DNA from: Streptomyces sp. V3I8
GTDB taxonomy: Bacteria; Actinomycetota; Actinomycetes; Streptomycetales; Streptomycetaceae
Assembly: GCF_030817535.1 (NCBI RefSeq)
Contig: NZ_JAUSZL010000002.1
Location: forward strand, 7,936,001-8,000,000
Length of the DNA stretch: 64,000 nt
Direction: 5' to 3'
Under the pieces are notes generated by a model, which saw nothing but the letters and a program-made list of their open reading frames with translations, was not told where the DNA came from and searched no databases. The position numbers and the translations under genes are program-made. Positions 1 through 10,146 of the stretch are shown here, one piece after another (position 1 is the first letter of the stretch; each line of letters begins with the position of its first letter).

Positions 1-191
1 AGTGGAAGGGTCAGATCCTTGGTCAGGCCATTCGTGGGTGTCTTCTCGGGCCAGTTTTCCTTGTTCACAATCGGTTTGCCGTCAGCCACGCTCTCCGTGG
101 TGTGCGCACTCGTGCCGGAGGAGCAAGCGCTGAGCAGGAGAGCTGAAGCGGTCAGGGCCACTGCGGTGGCGGTCCGCTTGATGTGCTTCAC
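1..191 (-). CDS. Putative lipoprotein, C-terminus cut by window edge
   Basis: A GTG start at 191 is preceded by an AGAAGGA ribosome-binding site, and the frame stays open to the window edge, so only the first 63 residues are visible. The product starts VKHIKRTATAVALTASALLL and continues into a lipobox (LLSAC), so it should be exported and lipid-anchored at a cysteine near residue 23. The visible mature part is short and polar (GKPIVNKENWPEKTPTNG) and I do not recognise a family. It begins 12 bp after the stop of the I36-like inhibitor gene and is probably cotranscribed with it. The reading is too short for the usual ORF cut-off. Confidence 0.7.
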   Translation of the reverse strand, partial: MKHIKRTATAVALTASALLLSACSSGTSAHTTESVADGKPIVNKENWPEKTPTNGLTKDLTLP

Positions 192-203
192 GGGGGTTCC
201 TTC

Positions 204-716
204 TCAGCCGAAGTGGGAAGAGGCGTTGTTGTTCTTCAGGGCGGAGATCAGGTTGGTGATGTTGCAGTCTCCGTAGGGTCCGTTCGCCGCAAAATACTGA
301 GAGGTGCCGCCGAAGCCGGAGTTGTAGTACACGCGGTAGTTGTCGTCTCGGGCGCAATTCTCCACGGACGCCGCATTGTTCTTCGTGTACTGGCCGTTGC
401 CATTGCCGCCGTTGCCGAAGACGTACCGGTAGGTCGTCAGTGACGATCCCTGGTACTGGCTCGTACCCCAGTGGTCGTCCACGTTGGCGTAGAACGACGT
501 GAACGCCGACTTGTAGTAGCCATCCTGGATGGCAAGGTCCTTCGAGTTGTAGAAGAGCCGCAAATCACCGTACGAGCAGGTGATCCATGGAACATCGCAG
601 TTGTCGGTGACGTTGTAGGTGGCCGCCTGGGCGGGTGTGGCGGTGGCCAGCACGGCCGCCACGGTAACGGCGAACGCGCCTGCGGCGGTCTTCGCGCGTA
701 GCGAGATGAGCTTCAA
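204..716 (-). CDS. Secreted peptidase inhibitor family I36-like protein
   Basis: I chose a TTG start at 716 because a GGGAGG ribosome-binding site lies just upstream and the product then begins with a clean signal peptide (LKLISLRAKTAAGAF ... ATPAQA, cleaved near residue 30). The 170-residue product matches the general pattern of Streptomyces I36 (SMPI-like) proteins: repeated short aromatic motifs (LRLFYNSK, YRVYYNSGFGG), a central KNNAASVENCARD, several cysteines that could pair, and an NNASSHF ending. Known I36 members inhibit metallopeptidases outside the cell; inhibition by this one is inferred. A longer upstream reading in the same frame lacks a ribosome-binding site and is unlikely. 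It heads a two-gene operon with the lipoprotein gene. Confidence 0.75.
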   Translation of the reverse strand: MKLISLRAKTAAGAFAVTVAAVLATATPAQAATYNVTDNCDVPWITCSYGDLRLFYNSKDLAIQDGYYKSAFTSFYANVDDHWGTSQYQGSSLTTYRYVFGNGGNGNGQYTKNNAASVENCARDDNYRVYYNSGFGGTSQYFAANGPYGDCNITNLISALKNNNASSHFG

Positions 717-937
717 AAATTTTCCCTCCCCCAGTCCGGTGTACCGAAGGGCCGCCGGAGATCCGATCAGGCGACTGGGCAGTCCAGTCGCCTGGCCCGC
801 GCGCCCCGTGTTGGCCGGATTCTGAGAATTCGGTGTGGAGGTTGCAGGCCGTCGGGAGATTAACACGGCATGCTCATGACGGTCGATCATCTTTTGTGAT
901 CTTCGTTCGCGGAGGGGGAAGCCTGTCTTCCTGCTGC

Positions 938-1852
938 TCACGTGCCCGTCACCGAGCGCCTGTCGCGGCCCTCGTTCCGACGCCCGTGGGCGTCACAGGC
1001 GCCGAGTTGGTCGGCGTACGGCGAGGCAACAGCCAGGACTTTCTCACCGAAGTCGGTAAGCCGCATCCGATGCCCGTGCTGGCCGCGGATCAACAGCTGC
1101 CCCTGGACGTCTTGTTCCAGGTGCTGGAGCTGCGGGGTCAGCGTGGAGGGGCGGATGCTGACCGCGCGGCAGAACGCCGCCAGGGTGGGGTAGGTCACTG
1201 CCTGCAGGAACCGGTGCAACCGCCGTTGCCCGGCGTGGGTGCGCACCGCGGGTTGCAGGAGGGTGGGAAAGCAGTCCACATTCGGGGCGTCGTCCGTGCG
1301 CTGGGCCCGCGTCTCTTGCGTTGTTCGTGCGGCAGGCGAGGGCCGGGGCGCTGATTGCCGCCAGGTCTCGCGCGGCTGGTCCACGAGAGTGTGGGCCCAG
1401 TCCTCGGCGGCCCGTACAACGTCTTCGCCGAGAGGGGTGAATTCGAGTTGTCGGCCGCGGCCAGCGCGGGTCAGTAGGGAGCGCAGAGGTCGGTCTCCAG
1501 GCGCTGGAGCTGCTGGGTGAGGGTTCCGGGAGACATGCCGTGGGTGCGGCACGCCTCACCGAGAGTGAGGTAGCGGACAATCTGAAGGAAGACGCGGCAG
1601 TCGGCGGATGGCGTTGGTGTTGTTCAGGCTGGGCTGGATCACTGCGGATGCCGATGTGAAGTCGTACCGCGCACCCCGGGGTTGCCTGTTGTTGTGCACC
1701 GGTATCCCATGGTTGCGGTCTCGGGCTGCCACGACAGCTCCGCTCATGCCGGTCTCACGCCCGAAGTCGGTCAGGGTGCGGCCTCGTATGGTTTCAGGAA
1801 CGAGAAGGTCGTGGAGAGCGCTGCTGTCGGGGCTTCTTCGCCGTGTTGCCAC
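938..1852 (-). pseudogene. Decayed array of helix-turn-helix modules, related to the TniQ tail
   Basis: Three HTH-like modules can be read on the minus strand but in different frames. First is a sigma-type HTH (RTLTDFGRETGMSGAVVAA) at about 1700-1790. Second is a LysR-like winged helix (YLTLGEACRTHGMSPGTLTQ) at about 1500-1595, which hits a stop after LCAPY and resumes in another frame as LLTRAGRGRQLEFTPLGEDV. Third is another LysR-like module (PTLAAFCRAVSIRPSTLTPQ) at about 1050-1170 in the 938-1552 frame. The order sigma-HTH then LysR-HTH matches the end of the TniQ-tail frame just upstream, so this looks like a duplicated or continued part of that protein that has accumulated frameshifts. 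No single intact reading frame covers it. Confidence 0.6.
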
Positions 1853-3423
1853 GCGTGGATGGCGGCGAGGATGCGGCGTCCTGGGTCGGTGAGCTGCATC
1901 GGCGTGGTGGGGGTGGCGCGTTCGATGAGGTGGAGGCCGAGGTCGGCTTCAACATGGCGGATGGCAGCTCGGAGGGTTGCGTCAACGATGTCGAGGGCTT
2001 GGGCGGCTTTGGCGAGACTGCCGTAGGGGGCTGCGGCGGCGAAGAGTTCGAGGCGGGTTCGGCCCAGTCTGCCGGTGAGTGCGGGCCGCAGAGGTGGCGG
2101 GATGTGTTGGAGTTCGATGTCGGGGTGGAGAACGCGTTGGTGGCTGCGTCCACCACGTGTGCGGGTTTGTATGCCGGCTTCCTTGATTCGCTTGAGCAGT
2201 GTGGATGCGCCGATGCCTTGCTCGGCCGCGAGATCGGTGGCGGAGCGTTGATGGACGATGTACTGCTCTTGCAGCCATTCCCGGTCGATGTGGACAGTTC
2301 GATTGTGTCCGGGTTCGCGTGGGCGACGTAGGGGGATGCCGTATTCGTCGGCGAGGTTGGCGATCACACGTGCACTGACCCCGATCTGGTCGCCGATCTG
2401 TTGGAGTGTGCGCTGCTGCTCGGTGTAGTGGCGGGTGAGGTCGTCGGTTGGCAGTGCCTCGCGTGCGTAACGCAGGGCCGCGTTGGGTCGCCAGCCGTGA
2501 GCTGCGCGCTGGGTGGTGGGAGCGGGGTGGAGGGCCAGGAGGTAGCGGATCGCTTCGGGCGTGGTGTCGAGTTTCTGCGCGGCCGCGGTGGGTGACTGGG
2601 AATGGCCGCGGATGAGCTGGTGCAGTCGGGCGAGGTCGACGGTGTGGGGGTCGCATCCGGGCAGGTCGAGTCCGTCGAGCAGGGTTGTGGGTGGCTGCCA
2701 GGTGAGTGGTTCGTGGGCGAGGTGGTGGCGGTCCAGGAAGGCGCGGGCCACGTCGTCGAGGGCTTCGGTCAGGGCGGGGGTGTGCCAGACGGGGAAGTTG
2801 ACCTTGTGGTCGCGCACGGTTCGAGGTGTCGTGTTGGGGGTGGGTTGTGTGCTGAGGCGTTCGACGAGCACCGCGCGTACGATGCCGGCTCTGCGCTGCT
2901 TGCCTGCCGAGATGCCCACGGTGCGGCAGATGCTGTGCCACTGCTCGTCGGGCAGCAGTTGGTGGTAGTCCAGGTGTCGGCGCCGGTGGTAGTCGATCGG
3001 GATGTCGGTGTTGTCGAGGTAGTCGCTGACGCGGGTGAGTGCTTCTTGGACGGCATCCCAGTGGCCTGACTTCTCCAGTACGCGCAGCATGCGGGACATG
3101 TGGCTGGAGTTGAGGTGAGAGCCGAGGCTGGTGAAGGCTGCCTTCTTGTCTATTTGGCTGCCGACGATCAAGAGCATCGCGGACAGGGCCTGACGCATGA
3201 TCGTGTCGAACGCGCCTTGCGCGGGGGCTGTCCGTAGCCACCAGCCCGGCCAGGCGAGAGTGGGGATCTTGCGGGCGCGTTGGGTCGCCGAGCCCGCGTC
3301 GGCGGGTGGCTTTCGGGGGCCGAAGTGACGGCTCGATGGCGCAACTGCTCGCTCAGCGGCCGGCGGTGCAGGGCAGCGGCAAGGTGCACGGACTTGAGAA
3401 GAGGGCTGATGTCGGCGCCCCAC
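1771..3423 (-). CDS. TniQ-family protein, C-terminal HTH-rich part (separate frame)
   Basis: The open frame begins at 3423, inside the 3' end of the upstream tniQ frame. It has no convincing ribosome-binding site and reads like the rest of the same protein. About 45 residues in, the segment RARKIPTLAWPGWWLR resembles the usual TniQ continuation. It is followed by helical regions and several HTH modules: LQQIGDQIGVSARVIANLAD, SATDLAAEQGIGASTLLKRI, and a LysR-like winged helix (SLAKAAQALDIVDATLRAAI) near the end. Joined to the upstream frame it would give a protein of about 890 residues. An independent start at ATG 3198 is possible but less attractive. The many DNA-binding modules suggest target-site recognition, which is inferred from the known roles of TniQ/TnsD. 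Confidence 0.6.
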   Translation of the reverse strand: MGRRHQPSSQVRAPCRCPAPPAAERAVAPSSRHFGPRKPPADAGSATQRARKIPTLAWPGWWLRTAPAQGAFDTIMRQALSAMLLIVGSQIDKKAAFTSLGSHLNSSHMSRMLRVLEKSGHWDAVQEALTRVSDYLDNTDIPIDYHRRRHLDYHQLLPDEQWHSICRTVGISAGKQRRAGIVRAVLVERLSTQPTPNTTPRTVRDHKVNFPVWHTPALTEALDDVARAFLDRHHLAHEPLTWQPPTTLLDGLDLPGCDPHTVDLARLHQLIRGHSQSPTAAAQKLDTTPEAIRYLLALHPAPTTQRAAHGWRPNAALRYAREALPTDDLTRHYTEQQRTLQQIGDQIGVSARVIANLADEYGIPLRRPREPGHNRTVHIDREWLQEQYIVHQRSATDLAAEQGIGASTLLKRIKEAGIQTRTRGGRSHQRVLHPDIELQHIPPPLRPALTGRLGRTRLELFAAAAPYGSLAKAAQALDIVDATLRAAIRHVEADLGLHLIERATPTTPMQLTDPGRRILAAIHAWQHGEEAPTAALSTTFSFLKPYEAAP

Positions 3424-4448
3424 GTGCTCACGGTCAGGGCCGCCTGGGGCGACACCCGCGAGACGGCTTCCACCAGGGTCCTCATGCGCTGGCCGGCTTC
3501 AGCGAAGGCGGGCTGGTTGAGGATGTTCAGTGCAACAAGAACGGCTGCGGCTGTGGATGGCGCCCCCGGTGGTGCCGATGCGCCGGGGCGGTCGGGGAAG
3601 CGCGAGGTGCGTTCCTGGGTGGGTATGCGGGTGACGATCTCGGCGGGCATGTCGCGGGTGAGGCAGGTGTCGGACATCAGATCCGCTGGCCGGGAGGCGA
3701 CCATGAGGAAGCGGGCGGCCAGCGCGCGGATGTCAGCGAGGGCGACCCGGGCCGGCTGGGGGTCGGCCGCGTAGATCCCGAAGTCGGCCCTGCCGGTGTC
3801 GATGCAGGTGGCAAGCAGGTGCTGAGCCTGGATCACCGGAGATTCGGCCGGGAACGGGAGGCTGGGGGCCGAGGTCAGGTCGTGGTGGCAGCGGGGGTGC
3901 TTGTCGCTGCCCCGCGTCGTGTTCGCGCACCGGCCGGGGATCGGGATGCCGTAGCCGCTGTGCGGGCGCATGCGTTGCGGGCGCAGGCAGCCCGGGCAGT
4001 CGTCGGCCAGCAGCCGGTTGTGCACCAGGCAGGCGAACGACCAGCCCAGCCGCCACGACACCTGCCAGCGTCCGCCGCTCTCGGCCAGGCAGACGGGACA
4101 GTAGCGCGAGCCCCTCGCGCGGCCCCAGAGCAGCCGCTGGTCGACACGCCTGCTGTGCGGGTTGAGCACCAGGGCGCGCTGGTCGTAGGGGCGCAGCGTC
4201 ATCCGGTGCACCTGCCCGGCCGTGATGCCGGTGGCCGACGCGATCGACTCCAGCTCCAGGTCAGTGGGCATCCCCGACCAGTCCCACCGGGCCGGTGACA
4301 GCCCCTCGTGGCGCGGAAGAAAGCCCAGGGCGGGCAGGAGGTCATTGAGGTAGGTGTCCGTGCGGTGTGCGATCGCCTCGACCCAGGAGTCCAATGCTTC
4401 TCCCGACACCGGTGCCACGCGGATCGGTAGCGTACGGACGAAGCTCAC
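3168..4448 (-). CDS. tniQ: TniQ family transposition target-selection protein, N-terminal part
   Basis: The GTG start at 4448 overlaps the tnsC stop (GTGA), which indicates translational coupling. The product begins VSFVRTLPIRVAPVSGEALD, the usual TniQ opening, and has a zinc-binding region with CPVC, then C-LVHN and CPGC near residues 120-160, followed by a second Cys/His cluster (GRCANTTRG..PRCHHDL). In Tn7 and Tn5053 relatives this protein links the TnsC ATPase to the target. The last 60 or so residues before the stop at 3168 are Arg/Pro-rich and do not resemble the family, while the -1 frame does, so the gene is probably frameshifted between about 3300 and 3420. A C5 run at 3315-3319 is one candidate site. 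Confidence 0.8.
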   Translation of the reverse strand: MSFVRTLPIRVAPVSGEALDSWVEAIAHRTDTYLNDLLPALGFLPRHEGLSPARWDWSGMPTDLELESIASATGITAGQVHRMTLRPYDQRALVLNPHSRRVDQRLLWGRARGSRYCPVCLAESGGRWQVSWRLGWSFACLVHNRLLADDCPGCLRPQRMRPHSGYGIPIPGRCANTTRGSDKHPRCHHDLTSAPSLPFPAESPVIQAQHLLATCIDTGRADFGIYAADPQPARVALADIRALAARFLMVASRPADLMSDTCLTRDMPAEIVTRIPTQERTSRFPDRPGASAPPGAPSTAAAVLVALNILNQPAFAEAGQRMRTLVEAVSRVSPQAALTVSTWGADISPLLKSVHLAAALHRRPLSEQLRHRAVTSAPESHPPTRARRPNAPARSPLSPGRAGGYGQPPRKARSTRSCVRPCPRCS

Positions 4449-5581
4449 GCCACGCGCTTCGCAGTGCGCGAGCGGCGAGAGTTGGGCTTGGTCGTCATGC
4501 GACCGCGTTCGAACTTCTTCGCCAGCGCCTTGCGCGCCCGCTCCGCCGCCGCGTCGAGCTTCACCTGGTCGAGGAGTTCCTCGTCCAGGAGCTCGGCGCC
4601 GGTGCGGGCAGCACGCTGGCATCCACGGTTGATCAGCGTCATCAACGAGCCGATGTGCCCGGTGGTGCGGATGTAGAGGTAGTCGGACAGGCCGTCGGCG
4701 AGCATGCCGGGGAACTTCCGGCACAGCACGATCCGCTTTTCCAGGGCGAGCAGCATGCTGCGCCACTCACGGCGGTGCTTGTCGTTGGTGACGACGAACG
4801 GCTCCATCGTCAGCGGGGTGGTGCGGCGCGCGGTCTGGGCGAGGGTGATGTTGCCGCGGGAGTTGGCCTCGGAGTACAGGCCGCGGTTGCCCAGCTCGAC
4901 ACCGATGAAGATGATCGTGACGGGGAACTCGTTCGCGATGTACTTGAAGTGGTTGCTGACCTCGGTCCCGTTGCGGTCATGCCACTTCAGGAAGTGCATG
5001 TCGTCAATAACCAAGACGCGCGTTTCACATTCCAACACGCAGTCCAGGGCGCGCTGAGCGAAGAGCGTGGCGGTGCCGCTCTTGCGGCCGGGGTGCGCGT
5101 AATACTCCAGCAGCGACCGGTTGAAGTCCTTCATGCCGATGTTGCTGGTCAGGCCGACCCGGCAGACCGGCCACCGCTCGTGTCCGGAGGCGGTGAACGC
5201 ACCCTCCCGCTCGATCACCCGCCGGTGATACTTCAGCACGAAGTCCAGGACCGCGGTGGTCTTGCCGAGCCCGGGGAAGGCGTCCACCGCCACGGCGCCC
5301 TTGGCCTTGTCACCGTCCTGCTGATTGCTATCGACGATGTCCCGCAAGTCCTCGTGCAGTGCCTTGAGTTGCGGCGTACCGATCGGACCCAGGTTGGCGT
5401 GCCAGACGCTCCGGGCCTGCTCGTACTTCAGCAACGCCGCCTCGCCCAGGAGCGCCTTCTGTTTCAGGGTGAGCAGTTCCGGCGGCTGCCGCTTCGGCGC
5501 CTCGGCAAGAGCCCGTAGGCCCTCCTTCCGGGAGAGCGTGAGGTTGTCCAGCGGCGGGTTCTCGGGGTGGGGCGGCATCAT
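4445..5581 (-). CDS. tniB: TnsC/TniB-type transposition ATPase
   Basis: The 378-residue product starts with ATG at 5581, overlapping the tnsAB stop (ATGA), and ends 4 bp into tniQ. It has a Walker A motif (DAFPGLGKTTAV, about residues 100-111) and a Walker B motif (RVLVIDDMHFLKW), followed by conserved AAA+ elements (FIGVELGNRGLYSEANSRG). This matches TniB/TnsC ATPases, which assemble on DNA, recruit the transposase and receive target information from TniQ. The C-terminus is basic (RRSRTAKRVA). The frame is intact, unlike its two neighbours. Whether it is still functional depends on those genes. Confidence 0.88.
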   Translation of the reverse strand: MMPPHPENPPLDNLTLSRKEGLRALAEAPKRQPPELLTLKQKALLGEAALLKYEQARSVWHANLGPIGTPQLKALHEDLRDIVDSNQQDGDKAKGAVAVDAFPGLGKTTAVLDFVLKYHRRVIEREGAFTASGHERWPVCRVGLTSNIGMKDFNRSLLEYYAHPGRKSGTATLFAQRALDCVLECETRVLVIDDMHFLKWHDRNGTEVSNHFKYIANEFPVTIIFIGVELGNRGLYSEANSRGNITLAQTARRTTPLTMEPFVVTNDKHRREWRSMLLALEKRIVLCRKFPGMLADGLSDYLYIRTTGHIGSLMTLINRGCQRAARTGAELLDEELLDQVKLDAAAERARKALAKKFERGRMTTKPNSRRSRTAKRVA

Positions 5582-8500
5582 GCGTCCTCCAGGGCATCGT
5601 CGTAGAAGTCCCCGTCGTCATCGGGGCCGTCGAGTTCGTCGTCCTCGTCGTCGTAGCTGGGCACCGGGCCCTCATACGGCTCGGCCTCGCCCACCTGGGG
5701 CTCCTCCGCGTCTTCGTCTTCGTCTTCGTCGTCGCCGGTGGCGGCGGCCAGGATCCGGGCGACGGACGGCAGCGCGCGTACGTCGTCCCACACGGTCTCC
5801 GGCAGGTCGAAGGCGGACTGTTCACGGGCCTGGCGCAGGGCAAGCCGCCGCTCCGGCAACGTCAGCCCCAGTCCCAAGTGCCACCGTTCCAGGAGCTCGG
5901 CTACCGCGGTCTCGTCGTCGGGGAAGGGCGACTTCTCGCCCGCCATCTTCCGGGCGAGTTCGATGGCTCCCTCGCTGATCGGGAACTTCAACGCCGGCGC
6001 GTGCTCCCACTCAAGGGCGTGCCAGCGGCGGGTGTCCGGGCGCCGGAAGTAGATGTAGTTGATGTTGTCCGGGTCGACCTGGATGGGCCACATGCCCTTG
6101 GCCTTCACCCCGGTGTACTCGCTGCTCTCGCCCCGGTAGCCGTCCAGCCCGGGGCCGTTGTAGCGGCACTTGCGGATCTCGACACCGTAGTGGTGCAGCG
6201 GCTTCCACTCGGTCTTGAGGAACTCGAAGCCGAGCGCGGGGTCGCGTGGCACCTCGACGTACCCGGCGCGGGCAATCCCGTGCTCGAACATCATCGCCGG
6301 CGACAGCCGCTGGCCCGGCACGTTCGCGTCGAGGAGCCCCCTACGCGGCCGGTGGTGATACGTGCAGGCCACCCACTCACGGATGATCGCCTCCAACTCG
6401 TGGAGGAAGAAGAACGCCGCGTCCTCCGGCCGCTCGCCCCGCGAGAACACATCCGGCCCCTTGTACCCGGGCAGCGACTCCAGCAGCCCCTCGCGCAGGG
6501 TCTTGAAGAATCGCTCAAGCGGACCTTTGTCGCGGCCCGTTCGCAGGCGAGCCGGCTGGATCGACAGACCAAGACGCTGGCACACCGAGGTGATGTGCTC
6601 GCTGATGTACGGCTTGCCGTGGTCGACCACGATGGTCTCGGGAACCAGCGCCGGGCCCGCGACTCCTTTCGCCTCGCCGTCCTCCGGGTCTTCCTTGGCG
6701 TCCTTCTCGAGCGCCTTGCGCTCGACGAAGACGGTGCGGGGGATGCCGTGATCGGGCCAGACCGCCCACGATGGCCAACCCTTGCCTGGCGGCCGTGGAC
6801 GATAGGTCTGAAACAGCACCGCCGCGACGTCGATGGACTGCGTGGATACCGGCGTCACCCGGATCCCCGTGACGCACCGGTCGTACCAGTCCATCGCGAC
6901 GGTCAGCTCGGCCTGCACCCACTTCAGCGTGATCGGGTCCATCGCGAAGACGTCCAGGCGCGTCGTGTCCATCAGCAGGTACTCGCCCGGCCTGGTCGGT
7001 CGCAGCTTTCCGTACGCGCCCGGCGGCCGGGAGGCGATGTCCCGGTTGCGTTTCGTGCTGAGGCGGAACGTCGGCAGCCGCCGCTCCAGCTCCTCCAGCC
7101 ACCGGTACGCGGTCGCCCGGGTCGGCAGCTTCACCTCGCCCTTGCCGTAGCGGGCTTCCAGTCGCGGGCCGACGGCGCGGATCACCTTCGCGCGGGTCGG
7201 TTTTGACTCCGACTCCTGCCCGTGCTCGGCCATGATCTCCAGGGCCATCTCCACCCACCGCTCATCGGCCCGGCCGAGCCTGCCCATGTCCCCGCTCCCG
7301 CGATCCGGGCCGCCGTGCACCAGCCCGGCCTCGCGGTCAAGCAGGAAGGCGCGCACCCATCGCTTGATGGTCCGCACGCTCACGCCCACCTCGGTGGCCT
7401 TCGTTTCGTAGCGCTGCAGCTTGGGCACCGTGGCCGCGTACTGGGGCCGCGGCTCGCCCGGCTCCGGCGCCTCCTCACTGCCCGAACGAAAGCCGGTCAG
7501 AACCTCGTTGACATGGGCCGCCCGTTCCCTGACCTCGGCCAGCTCCTCCTCGCTGAGCAGAGCGAACAGCACCGAGGCCCTCTCGCCGTCATCGTCGGCC
7601 TCCGGCCCCGGCCCGGTCGCGATGACCGTGGCCCGGCCCGAGGAGAGCGCCACTCTCAAGGACAGCCGGAACCTGCGGTCGGCCCCATCGCGGACCAGGA
7701 GCTCGTTGCCCGCGGCCGAGCCGAACATCTCTTCCACCACGACGACTTCGCCGTCGTACTTCAGCCTCGTGCCCACCCCGACACGTACCGCGGCTCCGTT
7801 CACATGTCCTCCCGAACGAGATCCCCGTATTCGATAGGCCGGTTCGTCGTCACCGTCGTCGAGCTCGGACTCGTCGATGGGATGAGGAAGGTCGCGTCGA
7901 CCGGAGCCGACCACCGTGGCCGGCCCCTGGCCCAGGACGTGCCGCTGGGACAAGACCTCCGTCAGGTCGGTCACGAAGTGCTGGCTCCACAACAGCCGCA
8001 GCACGGCGGCCCGTACCTTCCAGGCGGGGTGTAGAGGGAAGGCGTGAAACGCCTCGCCCAGGGTCGCCCCGTGCAGATCCGCCTGCCGTATCTCCACGAT
8101 CAGGTCTTCGTCGAAGAGCCAGTCGCGCCGATAGCCCGCGAGGAAGCGCAGGTTGGCCAACTCGCCCTCGGGCGGCTCGGACCACACTTCGAAGTCCCAG
8201 CCGTGCGACAGGACGACCTCGCGGGCCCAGTCGAGCGCGAAATTCACCTTCGGCCGGGTGAGCAGGTGCCGCGGCTTGACGTCCACGACCAGTGGAACGT
8301 CCTGCTCGCGCAGCACGAGGTAGTCCGGGACGTGGCGACGCTTCCGCCCGTCCACGGTGGTGGTGAGGAGGAACGGCTGGGCGAAGACGGCCGTCACGTT
8401 CTGGTCGAAGTCGGCGTAGAGCAGGCGTGTCAGCTCAAGGCGGGACTCGTAGACGACGTGGTCCCGCATGTGTGGAAGACCAGTGCGTGCCGGAGTAGTG

Positions 8501-8647
8501 CTTCTGCCCGTTGCGCCAGCGGAACGTACGCCACGGGATGGAGGGCTCGAAGACATCGACTCCCGACGTCGACCAGATCAGGTTCTCGTCGATCTTTCCG
8601 TTCGTACGACGGAGACTCATCGAGACTTCGTCGATCACCCGCGACAT
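5578..8647 (-). CDS. tnsB: TnsA-TnsB fusion transposase, frameshifted near its N-terminus
   Basis: The first frame starts at ATG 8647 after a strong CGGAGG site and encodes PWRTFRWRNGQKHYSGTHWS, a typical TnsA-like opening. It then runs off frame near 8470, and the +1 frame continues as MRDHVVYESRLELTRLLYAD to the stop at 5578. The likely TnsA nuclease residues lie after the shift: E in YESRLEL, D in RHVPDYLV, and K in VVDVKPR. Further on are an HTH (TEVGVSVRTIKRWVRAF), an RNase H-fold core with D in LLMDTTRLDVF, D in TIVVDHGKPYI and E in GPLERFFKT, and a Mu-type C-terminal domain. The tail is very acidic (DDEDEDEDAEE). Restart at ATG 8469 would give 963 residues with the nuclease core kept. 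Confidence 0.82.
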
Positions 8648-8849
8648 GCCCCGCCTCCGAGCAGCCAGAGCGGGGCGCAGAGCTCCCGGACTCGACCAGC
8701 TGCGACGTCTCTACGATCGAGCTGAAGGGGACCGCTGCATAGAACAGGACCGGGAACAGCACTACGACGAGTGAACGATCAGACAGCAGTTCGTCTCACC
8801 GCGCTGTCCTTTGGGCCGGACAAAGGCCACTGTCAACAAGAAAGGGACA
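8648..8849. repeat. Putative right end of the Tn7-like element with short repeated motifs
   Basis: No gene is seen here. Read inward on the minus strand from 8849 the sequence begins TGTCCCTTTCTTGTTGACAG, followed by a second TGTCC paired with GGACA (TGTCCGGCCCAAAGGACA, about 8804-8821) and further CTGTC/CTGTT motifs. Tn7-like and Tn5053-like ends characteristically begin TGT and carry several transposase-binding repeats, so this fits a terminus. The flank outside is TGCGA at 8850-8854, repeated as TGCGA two bases later. The matching left end was not found. Confidence 0.5.
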
Positions 8850-9350
8850 TGCGAAATGCGAACCTACAAGGGTCTGGGCCAGCGGGAGCTCGTGAGAGGT
8901 GACGAGGTTCGGCAGGGCTGCCTCAGGGATCGGGCCCGCGACAGCGGCCGACACGGACAACACGGCCAGGCAGCCCAGGGCCAGAGGGACAGAGCCTGTG
9001 TGAAATGCGGCCAGCAACCCGACGACCGGCGCGATCGCACCCAGGTCGCATGCGATCCGCAGGCGTTGCCGGTCGAATCGGTCAGTGAGCGGGCCGATCA
9101 ACGGCAGTAGCAGAACCCCCGGGAGTGAGTTGACGGCGAACAGCAGTGCCGTCCAGCCCGGTGAGCCCGTGCGGTGGTAGACGAAACTGCTCAGGGCGAC
9201 GAAGGTGAACCAGTCACCTGTCAGGCTGAGCGCGGAAGCAGAGAAAAGGCGTCGGAATTCGGCATTGTCACGCAGTAGCGCGACCGGACTTCCGTGAGAG
9301 CGGCGGAGTGCGAATAACACCCGGTGACTCCAGCGGTGATGGCGTCCCAA
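8796..9350 (-). pseudogene. MFS transporter, 5' fragment truncated by the transposon
   Basis: From ATG 9350 the frame encodes the first 160 or so residues of an MFS transporter: a cytoplasmic start (ALLRDNAEFRRLFSASALSL), TM1 (GDWFTFVALSSFVYHRTG), the loop motif between TM2 and TM3 (PLIGPLTDRFDRQRL), and TM3-TM5. The reading follows the family through PNLVTSHELPLAQTLVGS at about 8860 and then changes to SHFACPFLVDSGLCPAQRTA, which is encoded by transposon-end sequence. The remaining two thirds of the transporter are absent from the window. The product cannot be a working transporter. Confidence 0.8.
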
Positions 9351-9741
9351 ACAATGACCGGGACGAACGACGGAGATGACGTCGTGTGTGCTCCAGGGCT
9401 TGAGTGGCCGTGGAACAACCGCTGATCAGTCACAGAGGCGATACATGGCAGGCATGTTATTACTGGCGCCTCCGCTTACGTCCGGAGGCTGCGAGAACTG
9501 CACCTGCCGGCGAGCATGATCTCTGGTGGCACGTCTGACGAGCTCGTTGTGAACCGTCCCGCTATCCGGCTCATCAGTCCCTCGAACGCCTCCTGCCGGC
9601 GGGCAGGGTCTACGCTGTGACCTGCGGCCACAGCGTGATCGTTTGTCTTCACACACCGATGATCAACGGGTGGCCGCACCCGTCTCCACAACGCGTCGGG
9701 GTCGCGCAGCGTCCGCCCGCCGTCCTGTGTCAGGAGGACAT
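9351..9741. other. Gap with a short IS701-like transposase scrap
   Basis: No intact gene. On the minus strand, about 9540-9640 encodes RRQEAFEGLMSRIAGRFTT, which resembles the N-terminus of IS701-type (DDE_5) transposases. The resemblance stops at once, and a neighbouring frame gives VRRATRDHARRQ, which could be the same segment after a shift. The piece is too short for a firm family call. The rest shows nothing recognisable apart from the AGGAGGA ribosome-binding site at 9732-9738 that serves the toxin gene. Confidence 0.35.
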
Positions 9742-10146
9742 GTGCAACGTGGCGAAGTCTGGTGGGCGGAGTTCGACGAGCGGCGGCCGGTCGTGCTGCT
9801 GTCAGGAGACGACGCGTCCGGGATCCAGGTGATGCAGGTCGTCGCTCGGGCGGGTGTCGACATCACCGGTCTGGGCGTCGAAGTGGCAGTAGGCGCCGTG
9901 GAAGGACTGCCCTTTGAAGGCGTGCTTCGGTTCGCGTTCCCGCGTCCGGGCTTTACCCCTTGCACGTGGCTGACCACCGTGTCCCGGGACGACCTGATCG
10001 AGCGGGCGGGCGCCCTGTCCTCCGCGAAACTCAGCGAGATTGAGAACGCCCTCCATCTCGATGAGCAGGCGAAGGTGTGGACCCCGGCGACGACCGCGAA
10101 GCTCAGCGAGATAAGGAACGCCCTCCGCCTCGGTGGACTCGGGTAG
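9742..10146 (+). CDS. PemK/MazF-family growth inhibitor (toxin), C-terminus duplicated
   Basis: The GTG start at 9742 follows an AGGAGGA site, and the product begins VQRGEVWWAEFDERRPVVLL, the standard opening of MazF/PemK-type mRNA interferases. The conserved strand order of the SH3-like fold can be followed through EGVLRFAFPRPG and CTWLTTVSRDDLIERAG. The C-terminus ALSSAKLSEIENALHLDEQ is followed by a second copy, TTAKLSEIRNALRLGG, produced by a 72-bp (24-codon) direct duplication. Total length is 134 residues, longer than the usual 110 or so. No antitoxin gene is visible directly upstream or downstream, so it is either an orphan or a lone member of the family. Ribonuclease activity is inferred from family membership only. 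Confidence 0.8.
   Translation: MQRGEVWWAEFDERRPVVLLSGDDASGIQVMQVVARAGVDITGLGVEVAVGAVEGLPFEGVLRFAFPRPGFTPCTWLTTVSRDDLIERAGALSSAKLSEIENALHLDEQAKVWTPATTAKLSEIRNALRLGGLG
10024..10132 (+). repeat. 72-bp-period direct duplication inside the toxin gene
   Basis: A 37-bp segment at 10024-10060 is repeated at 10096-10132 with 31 of 37 bases kept, by eye. The period is exactly 24 codons, so the reading frame is preserved and the last helix of the toxin is doubled. Confidence 0.85.

Follow-up and report, generated by a model that had tools for sequence, protein, structure and literature searches.

The window analyzed here, a 64,000-bp stretch of the 9.3-Mb genome of Streptomyces sp. V3I8, holds the transposition genes and one end of a Tn7-like element, all on the reverse strand (Table 1). 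Taken as a whole, our data make it probable that this element is a cut-and-paste transposon of a Streptomyces and that it comes from a family whose members often home to dnaB.

Transposition genes and limits of the element

The TnsA and TnsB parts of the transposase share one reading frame. The profile NF033179 (TnsA_like_Actin) matches this open reading frame (ORF) above its cut-off (E 1.7e-53); the rve, Mu-transpos_C, and IS481-type matches of the same ORF are weak and stay under their cut-offs. The TniB/TnsC ATPase contains the strings GLGKTT and VLVIDD, which we take to be Walker A and B, and adjacent genes overlap by 4 bp, at 5578-5581 (TnsAB/TniB) and 4445-4448 (TniB/TniQ). A preliminary description of this DNA, made from the sequence alone, had proposed the joined TnsA-TnsB, the ATPase, TniQ, and their overlaps, and the ORFs together with NF033179, PF05621, and PF06527 bear this out. 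With a TnsA-like endonuclease and a DDE TnsB, a TnsC/TniB ATPase, and a TniQ/TnsD selector, the element has the gene set by which Tn7-like transposons are recognized. Tn5053/Tn402-like elements have no TnsA and carry a resolvase and a res site; this class was set aside since TnsA is present and fused to TnsB, although a resolvase was not searched for.

The element measures 16,241 bp and extends from position 8868 to 7,372 bp before the first base of the window. A close relative in another genome (G169), which served as our reference, is 96.7% identical over window positions 1808-8868, and the identity breaks off at 8868. The terminal sequence found there, TGTAGGTTCGCATTTCGCATGT, occurs only once in the window with up to three mismatches allowed, and in none of 100 shuffles. 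Relatives have the same TGTAGG right end, and it is this TGT[AG]GG end that adjoins TnsA. Repeat-like strings are also visible at the right end of the window element. The left end was sought as an ACA end followed by ACCCT, the 5 bp that flank the right end. Two sequences fitted, one of them a match within TniQ that is due to chance, the other the left end itself, 16,241 bp away. Tn7 has TGT/ACA ends and makes a 5-bp target duplication, and the window element likewise shows TGT...ACA ends with a 5-bp duplication. Rejoining the flanks with a single ACCCT yields an open frame of 463 residues encoding an MFS transporter; the window thus contains a single end of a transposon that is larger and interrupts an MFS gene. 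In 17 of 30 entries tested, a left end was found together with the corresponding 5-bp duplication, and compact relatives with both ends span 6.1-8.4 kb. The module of the preliminary description is the transposition end of this element, whose limits lie further out. That description had also called the module degraded, which holds for TniQ and the adjoining stretch but not for the element at large, as both ends are present and the TnsAB and TniB frames are open.

TniQ is split between two overlapping ORFs in different frames. The TniQ of G169, about 93% identical, is a single open frame of 901 amino acids (aa), in agreement with the composite of about 890 residues that had been predicted, and the frameshift in the window may be an assembly error. 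The predicted tail rich in helix-turn-helix (HTH) modules, with a LysR-like winged helix, was recovered as well, and a TniQ with such a tail is a likely target selector, as had been suggested. PF06527 was found in all 14 relatives of our TniQ alignment A1, and most TniQs of the family are 720-1080 aa long with HTH matches. In a structure model of a relative's TniQ (predicted local distance difference test score, pLDDT, 86), the N terminus matches TnsD and TniQ and the C-terminal end matches LysR DNA-binding domains, the comparison being informative only for residues 7-198 and 788-876.

Beyond TniQ, the modules at 938-1808 appear to come from the tail of another TniQ. Similarity to G169 ends at 1808 and the G169 TniQ, complete at 901 aa, stops about 60 bases further, so that the modules past this point seem not to be part of the same TniQ. 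The remnant itself begins with a stretch aligning weakly (30-43%) to the C termini of relatives' TniQs and continues with a LysR-type HTH, the same order as in a related locus (L046). The preliminary description had noted further modules in a remnant at 938-1852. They do exist, with a second HTH_1 in ORF 938-1552 (E 3e-6), and they lie on the same strand and are of the same kinds as those of TniQ, as would be expected of a single longer tail split by mutations. Given where the G169 TniQ ends and how the remnant restarts, we consider such a longer tail quite unlikely.

Table 1. Features of the element and its surroundings in the window
Feature	Position	Strand	Basis or remark
Start of cargo region (ORFs 204-941 and onward)	1..941	-	Continues past the window to the left end
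Broken tail of a putative second TniQ-type gene (HTH and LysR-type HTHs)	938..1808	-	Beside the first TniQ
TniQ, C-terminal part	1771..3423	-	Different frame; frame lost where the two ORFs overlap
LysR-type HTH_1 (PF00126) winged helix of TniQ	1876..2055	-	aa 457-516 of C-terminal part; E 3.5e-11
TniQ, N-terminal part, cysteine-rich region	3168..4448	-	PF06527, E 1.3e-20
TniB/TnsC AAA ATPase, 378 aa	4445..5581	-	PF05621, E 6.9e-11
TnsA-TnsB fused transposase, 992 aa	5578..8556	-	One reading frame; NF033179
Right transposon end, terminal TGTAGGTTCGCATTTCGCATGT (8847-8868) and stretch inward	8700..8868	-	Identity boundary with G169
5-bp target site duplication ACCCT, right copy	8869..8873	-	Second copy after the left end, outside the window
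5' part of interrupted host MFS transporter gene	8869..9350	-	Pfam on the window part

Recurrent insertion behind dnaB

Searching genome contigs with alignment A1 gave 114 stretches at 77 loci. The C-terminal part of TniQ alone proved unsuitable as a query (65 pattern stretches, no confirmed relative), and in another search, with matches in 68 of 150 genomes, most of the weaker matches spanned the LysR part only, resembled ordinary LysR regulators, and were left unused. Of the 77 named loci, 37 supplied flanking sequences, to which 33 places in other genomes or the window were added; loci without a TGT[AG]GG end or with less than 60 bp of flank, and places already present, were omitted by hand. 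The resulting 70 flanks include two exact duplicate pairs (L034/L142 and L167/L168), leaving 68 distinct ones. After loose clustering thresholds had merged 57 of the 70 and been replaced by stricter limits, one cluster comprised 34 flanks (33 of the 68 distinct), all at the 3' end of dnaB. In each of the 34, 5-12 bp separate the stop codon from the element end (10 bp in ten, 8 bp in eight, and 11 bp in seven). In many relatives this end is preceded by a frame closing with GHYSRFVDMAQT and a stop codon, recognizable as the C terminus of the replicative helicase DnaB; for one of the 34 (L049), the gene is a DnaB-like paralogue, 39% identical. Two further dnaB junctions were recognized by eye, in L150 (7 bp) and L154 (3 bp). 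The hosts belong to Streptomyces, Streptantibioticus, Actinospica, Nonomuraea, Pseudonocardia, Amycolatopsis, Nocardia, Tsukamurella, Mycolicibacterium, and Actinoplanes.

The preliminary description had recommended listing the insertion sites of relatives in search of a shared target, and such shared sites were indeed found. In the main group, related selectors go with one conserved position beside a conserved gene. It is likely, as far as sequences can tell, that a large part of the family homes in the manner of TnsD, using dnaB much as Tn7 uses glmS. This also bears on the earlier suggestion that an HTH-rich tail marks a departure from the single-site TnsD model. The tail alone does not imply this, considering that nearly half of the distinct flanks share the dnaB site, and the LysR-type helix is undetected in five TniQs of that site; the elements with fused TnsA-TnsB, which lack one fixed site, nevertheless keep the idea alive.

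A pattern consisting of the dnaB end, 3 to 16 arbitrary bases, and TGTRGG was present in 48 of 392 genomes of the genus, a lower bound since the pattern is strict and misses variant dnaB ends, and the reversed pattern was present in none. The recurrence could in principle reflect vertical inheritance or hitchhiking of a few old insertions instead of repeated homing, given that many hosts are of one genus and that some dnaB-site elements are close relatives in the TniQ tree. However, the same junction occurs across ten actinobacterial genera, the offset varies, and 344 of the 392 genomes are without the (strict) junction pattern. The 5 bp adjoining the end mostly differ between elements, with L032 and L099 sharing CACGG, so that most insertions look independent. 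Furthermore, a distant mycobacterial lineage carries another end sequence at the same spot: seven loci (L179, L182, L186, L188, L198, L200, and L204) have a TGTCGAG... end that follows the stop codon of dnaB at a distance of 5-12 bp, and the TnsB matches obtained among them are 25-27% identical. We therefore regard inheritance without repeated homing as very improbable. L036 and L140 each have two elements or ends stacked behind a single dnaB, which suggests that the site has been used more than once.

The genome of the window does not match the junction pattern. The stretch after its chromosomal dnaB (G000:C2:4374496, L106) can be aligned to right ends of the family with scores of 91 and 102 (maximum of 300 shuffles, 34). 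It is probably a decayed right end, in which case this genome would once have hosted a dnaB-site element. No decayed right end was found behind a plasmid-type DnaB gene on another contig of the same genome.

As to the part of TniQ that would read the site, the LysR-type HTH_1 was undetected at E 0.05 in five dnaB-site TniQs (L143, L149, L150, L158, and L170), which are among ten TniQs chosen for being short or odd. The LysR domain is thus not essential for the dnaB site, and the three HTHs upstream of it appear to be better candidates for its recognition.

Other sites and the fused TnsA-TnsB group

In a tree of 64 TniQs, built by a quick method without bootstrap, insertion sites follow the selector. 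For 49 tips with 19 site states, 19 changes are needed (minimum possible, 18), compared to a mean of 25.7 and a minimum of 23 in 500 shuffles. Tips of unknown site, L146, and L168 were omitted; L150 (dnaB) and L184 (rsmB-like) were labeled from their sequences, and L117 and L118, single in the clustering, received one label by eye.

TnsA and TnsB occupy one frame in 11 of the 150 loci tested, corresponding to seven genomes, the fused (11) and separate (139) loci including repeats of one place. These genomes are that of the window, G169, G160, Streptomyces olivochromogenes (L177), S. fildesensis (L130), S. albicerus (L129), and S. hygroscopicus NBRC 13472 (L184). None of their elements is at the dnaB site. 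The window element, inside an MFS gene and with its kin elsewhere, does not show single-site homing. In G169, S. albicerus, and the related G326, where TnsA is partly left, the elements share one position within a lipoprotein gene family. A further observation on G326 is that element ends stand back to back in L126 (11993-12001, reverse strand), a left end lying 7 bp from the next right end.

In the TniQ tree, G169, L129, and L130 are sister to 18 rows, of which the 13 with a known site are all at dnaB (joint branch support, 90), and dnaB is also found in rows outside both groups. Having left dnaB is therefore the simpler reading for the lineage of the window, and we infer from the tree that this lineage once used dnaB. 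The TniQ of L184, which has a fused core, stands elsewhere in the tree than those of G169, L129, and L130. In L177, positions 5601-9953, comprising the right end, TnsAB, and most of TniB, are 92.5% identical to window positions 4490-8868 over 4,380 bp. Its TniQ, for which no full frame was found, is about 36% identical to that of G169 and 53% to that of L147, the change occurring near the TniB-TniQ junction, and the element is at another site. L177 is probably a natural exchange of the target selector on the same transposase core.

Several observations weigh against TniQ-directed homing with dnaB as its principal address. Just over half of the flanks (36 of 70) are not part of the dnaB cluster; 20 of them form eight groups with 2-4 members each, and 16 are single sites. 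With gene names assigned by eye, the groups include an NlpC/P60-like 3' end (3), DUF317-like genes (4), a Ku-like gene start (2), and a lipoprotein gene (3), and the single sites include GAPDH-like and GH15-like 3' ends. The distinction of dnaB from all other sites takes seven changes on the TniQ tree (shuffles, mean 16.6, minimum 9). Moreover, TniQ mostly shares its history with the rest of the element, so the agreement of sites with the tree speaks for consistency and not for cause. L045 is at dnaB though its TniQ is of the group found at the DUF317-like site, and the TniQs of the window and G169, despite their close similarity, go with elements in different genes. Pairwise alignment revealed no motif common to the fused-group sites, and the best resemblance of the window site to the dnaB end, an 11-bp match, was equaled by 3.9% of 1500 background segments; neither a shared motif nor such a resemblance was convincing, and both were dropped. 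Finally, L177 lacks a 5-bp duplication, the decayed right end in the window's genome matches just two of nine right ends tried, and the stretch after dnaB in G169 scores weakly (33, compared to at most 30 in shuffles).

An alternative is that the address is read by a factor other than TniQ, which could be a protein of the host, an RNA, or a second selector that escaped detection, and that TniQ is a mere adaptor. Short TniQs with partner selectors (TnsF, Cascade) are known (PMC10293859), and L045, together with a group of short TniQs of about 720-740 aa, is found at several sites with similar TniQs. On the other hand, the length and HTH matches of most TniQs in the family make them TnsD-like rather than adaptor-like; compact elements with both ends exist, and no common extra gene was noticed, albeit without a systematic screen. 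We regard a non-TniQ reader as unlikely.

For the fused group, a further alternative deserves more weight. In this scenario, targeting is relaxed or follows a second pathway, and the insertion of the window element into the MFS gene was semi-random. Nine elements that belong to the group or stand close to it could be surveyed from a readable right end, a tenth (G376) having none. The three in the lipoprotein gene aside, six are at six places: the MFS gene, a dnaE2-like gene, an ECF sigma-like gene, the start of an FAD monooxygenase gene, the start of a sirtuin gene, and an rsmB-like 3' end (all but the MFS gene named by eye). This scatter and the lack of a common motif in pairwise alignments speak for such targeting; three insertions in one gene family, however, are not random. 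Both ends with a 5-bp duplication were found in only three of the nine (the window, G169, and G326), and some of the other six may therefore be rearranged; no left end with a duplication was found for L129, L130, L177, and L184 and none for L124 and L125. We give relaxed or second-pathway targeting in the fused group close to an even chance.

A bolder hypothesis would be that, along with the TnsA-TnsB fusion, the selector of a TnsD lineage homing to dnaB became relaxed or reprogrammable, with HTH and LysR modules gained and lost, TniQ genes swapped on one core, and near-identical elements at different, partly recurrent, gene-interrupting sites. This is tentative, and we think it rather doubtful in its entirety. 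If true, a Tn7-like transposon would here be observed in the course of being retargeted by protein-based means.

Putative mechanism and relation to known systems

Considering these data, we propose a model in which homing at dnaB is directed by TniQ. TnsAB would cut and join, and the TniB/TnsC ATPase would license insertion. TniQ would act as a TnsD-type selector, its N-terminal core contacting TnsC and its C-terminal HTH array reading a chromosomal address, which would place the insertion at a set distance. The roles of core and tail and the set distance are drawn from analogy with Tn7, and the assignment of the reading to TniQ and to particular HTHs is inferred, whereas the ends, the target duplication, the interrupted gene, the recurrent dnaB junctions, and the domain composition are observed. 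The commonest address in this actinobacterial family would be the 3' end of dnaB, likely read by the TniQ tail, and insertion there, 5-12 bp behind the stop codon, leaves the essential gene whole; other TniQ groups would read other addresses. The element in the window would belong to a fused-TnsAB side branch that is not at dnaB; it interrupts an MFS gene, its TniQ has lost its frame, and a putative second-TniQ tail lies on its cargo side.

In Tn7, the TnsD selector directs insertion just downstream of a conserved gene (PMC2918618, PMC11406308). TnsA, TnsB, TnsC/TniB, and TniQ/TnsD of this system, which uses attTn7 (glmS), are shared with our family, as is a selector with an N-terminal TniQ domain and a C-terminal DNA-binding part. 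The family differs from Tn7 in its commonest site, dnaB and not glmS, in its selector, which measures about 880 aa and frequently carries a LysR-type winged helix at the C terminus, and in the fusion of TnsA to TnsB, found here only in the group of the window.

A clade of Tn7-like transposons dominated by Actinobacteria, none experimentally characterized, has been reported (Benler 2021, PMC8649781). The phylum and the core gene set agree with those of our family, which suggests that the two are the same; the passages on this clade name no attachment site, and the main text does not contain "dnaB." TnsD-like selectors with multiple C-terminal HTHs have also been described (Faure 2023, PMC10293859). 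Like the TniQs studied here, they have a core of Hel1, zinc finger, and Hel2 and a long HTH tail thought to recognize the attachment site, whereas "LysR," "winged," and "actinobacteri" are absent from the main text of that article. Tn7706 of Rhodococcus erythropolis (PMC12915292) is likewise actinobacterial, with tnsA, tnsB, tniB, and tniQ, but is reported on plasmids and in genomic islands, and its main text does not mention dnaB. The tRNA-homing Tn7-like elements that gave rise to the CRISPR-associated transposons (CAST) I-B2 and I-D have a TnsA-TnsB fusion and exchange TniQ partners (PMC11406308), as in our fused group. The sites in that account are tRNA genes, while the fusion and a probable TniQ exchange seen here belong to actinobacterial relatives of the dnaB homers. 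Among the main texts of open-licence articles in PubMed Central listed by our searches, no Tn7-like or TniQ paper was found that names dnaB as an attachment site.

In a genus that serves natural-product research, recurrent insertion after dnaB offers a site for protein-guided integration that can be tested and that keeps the gene intact. Matched pairs with which to ask which part of TniQ sets the address are provided by the fused group and by the probable natural exchange of TniQ.

Related TnsAB proteins are also encoded on 58 plasmid records at E 1e-60, 31 from Rhodococcus and 18 from Streptomyces, and two such plasmids have the gene order tnsA, tnsB, ATPase, tniQ. In three chromosome-sized contigs (G058:C1, G167:C1, and G213:C1), TnsB-like places of about 32-33% identity lie within tens of kilobases of both contig ends, possibly representing a telomere-associated TnsB family.

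The cargo of the window element lies mostly outside the window. The genes found there include one for a 1488-aa protein that matches Golvesin_C and NucA/NucB DNase profiles, one on the opposite strand for a member of the SUKH family (SMI1_KNR4), and a short ORF containing a transposase-associated domain. The proximity of the NucA/NucB DNase protein to the SUKH gene (L101:13536-18663) suggests a possible pair of competition toxin and immunity protein.

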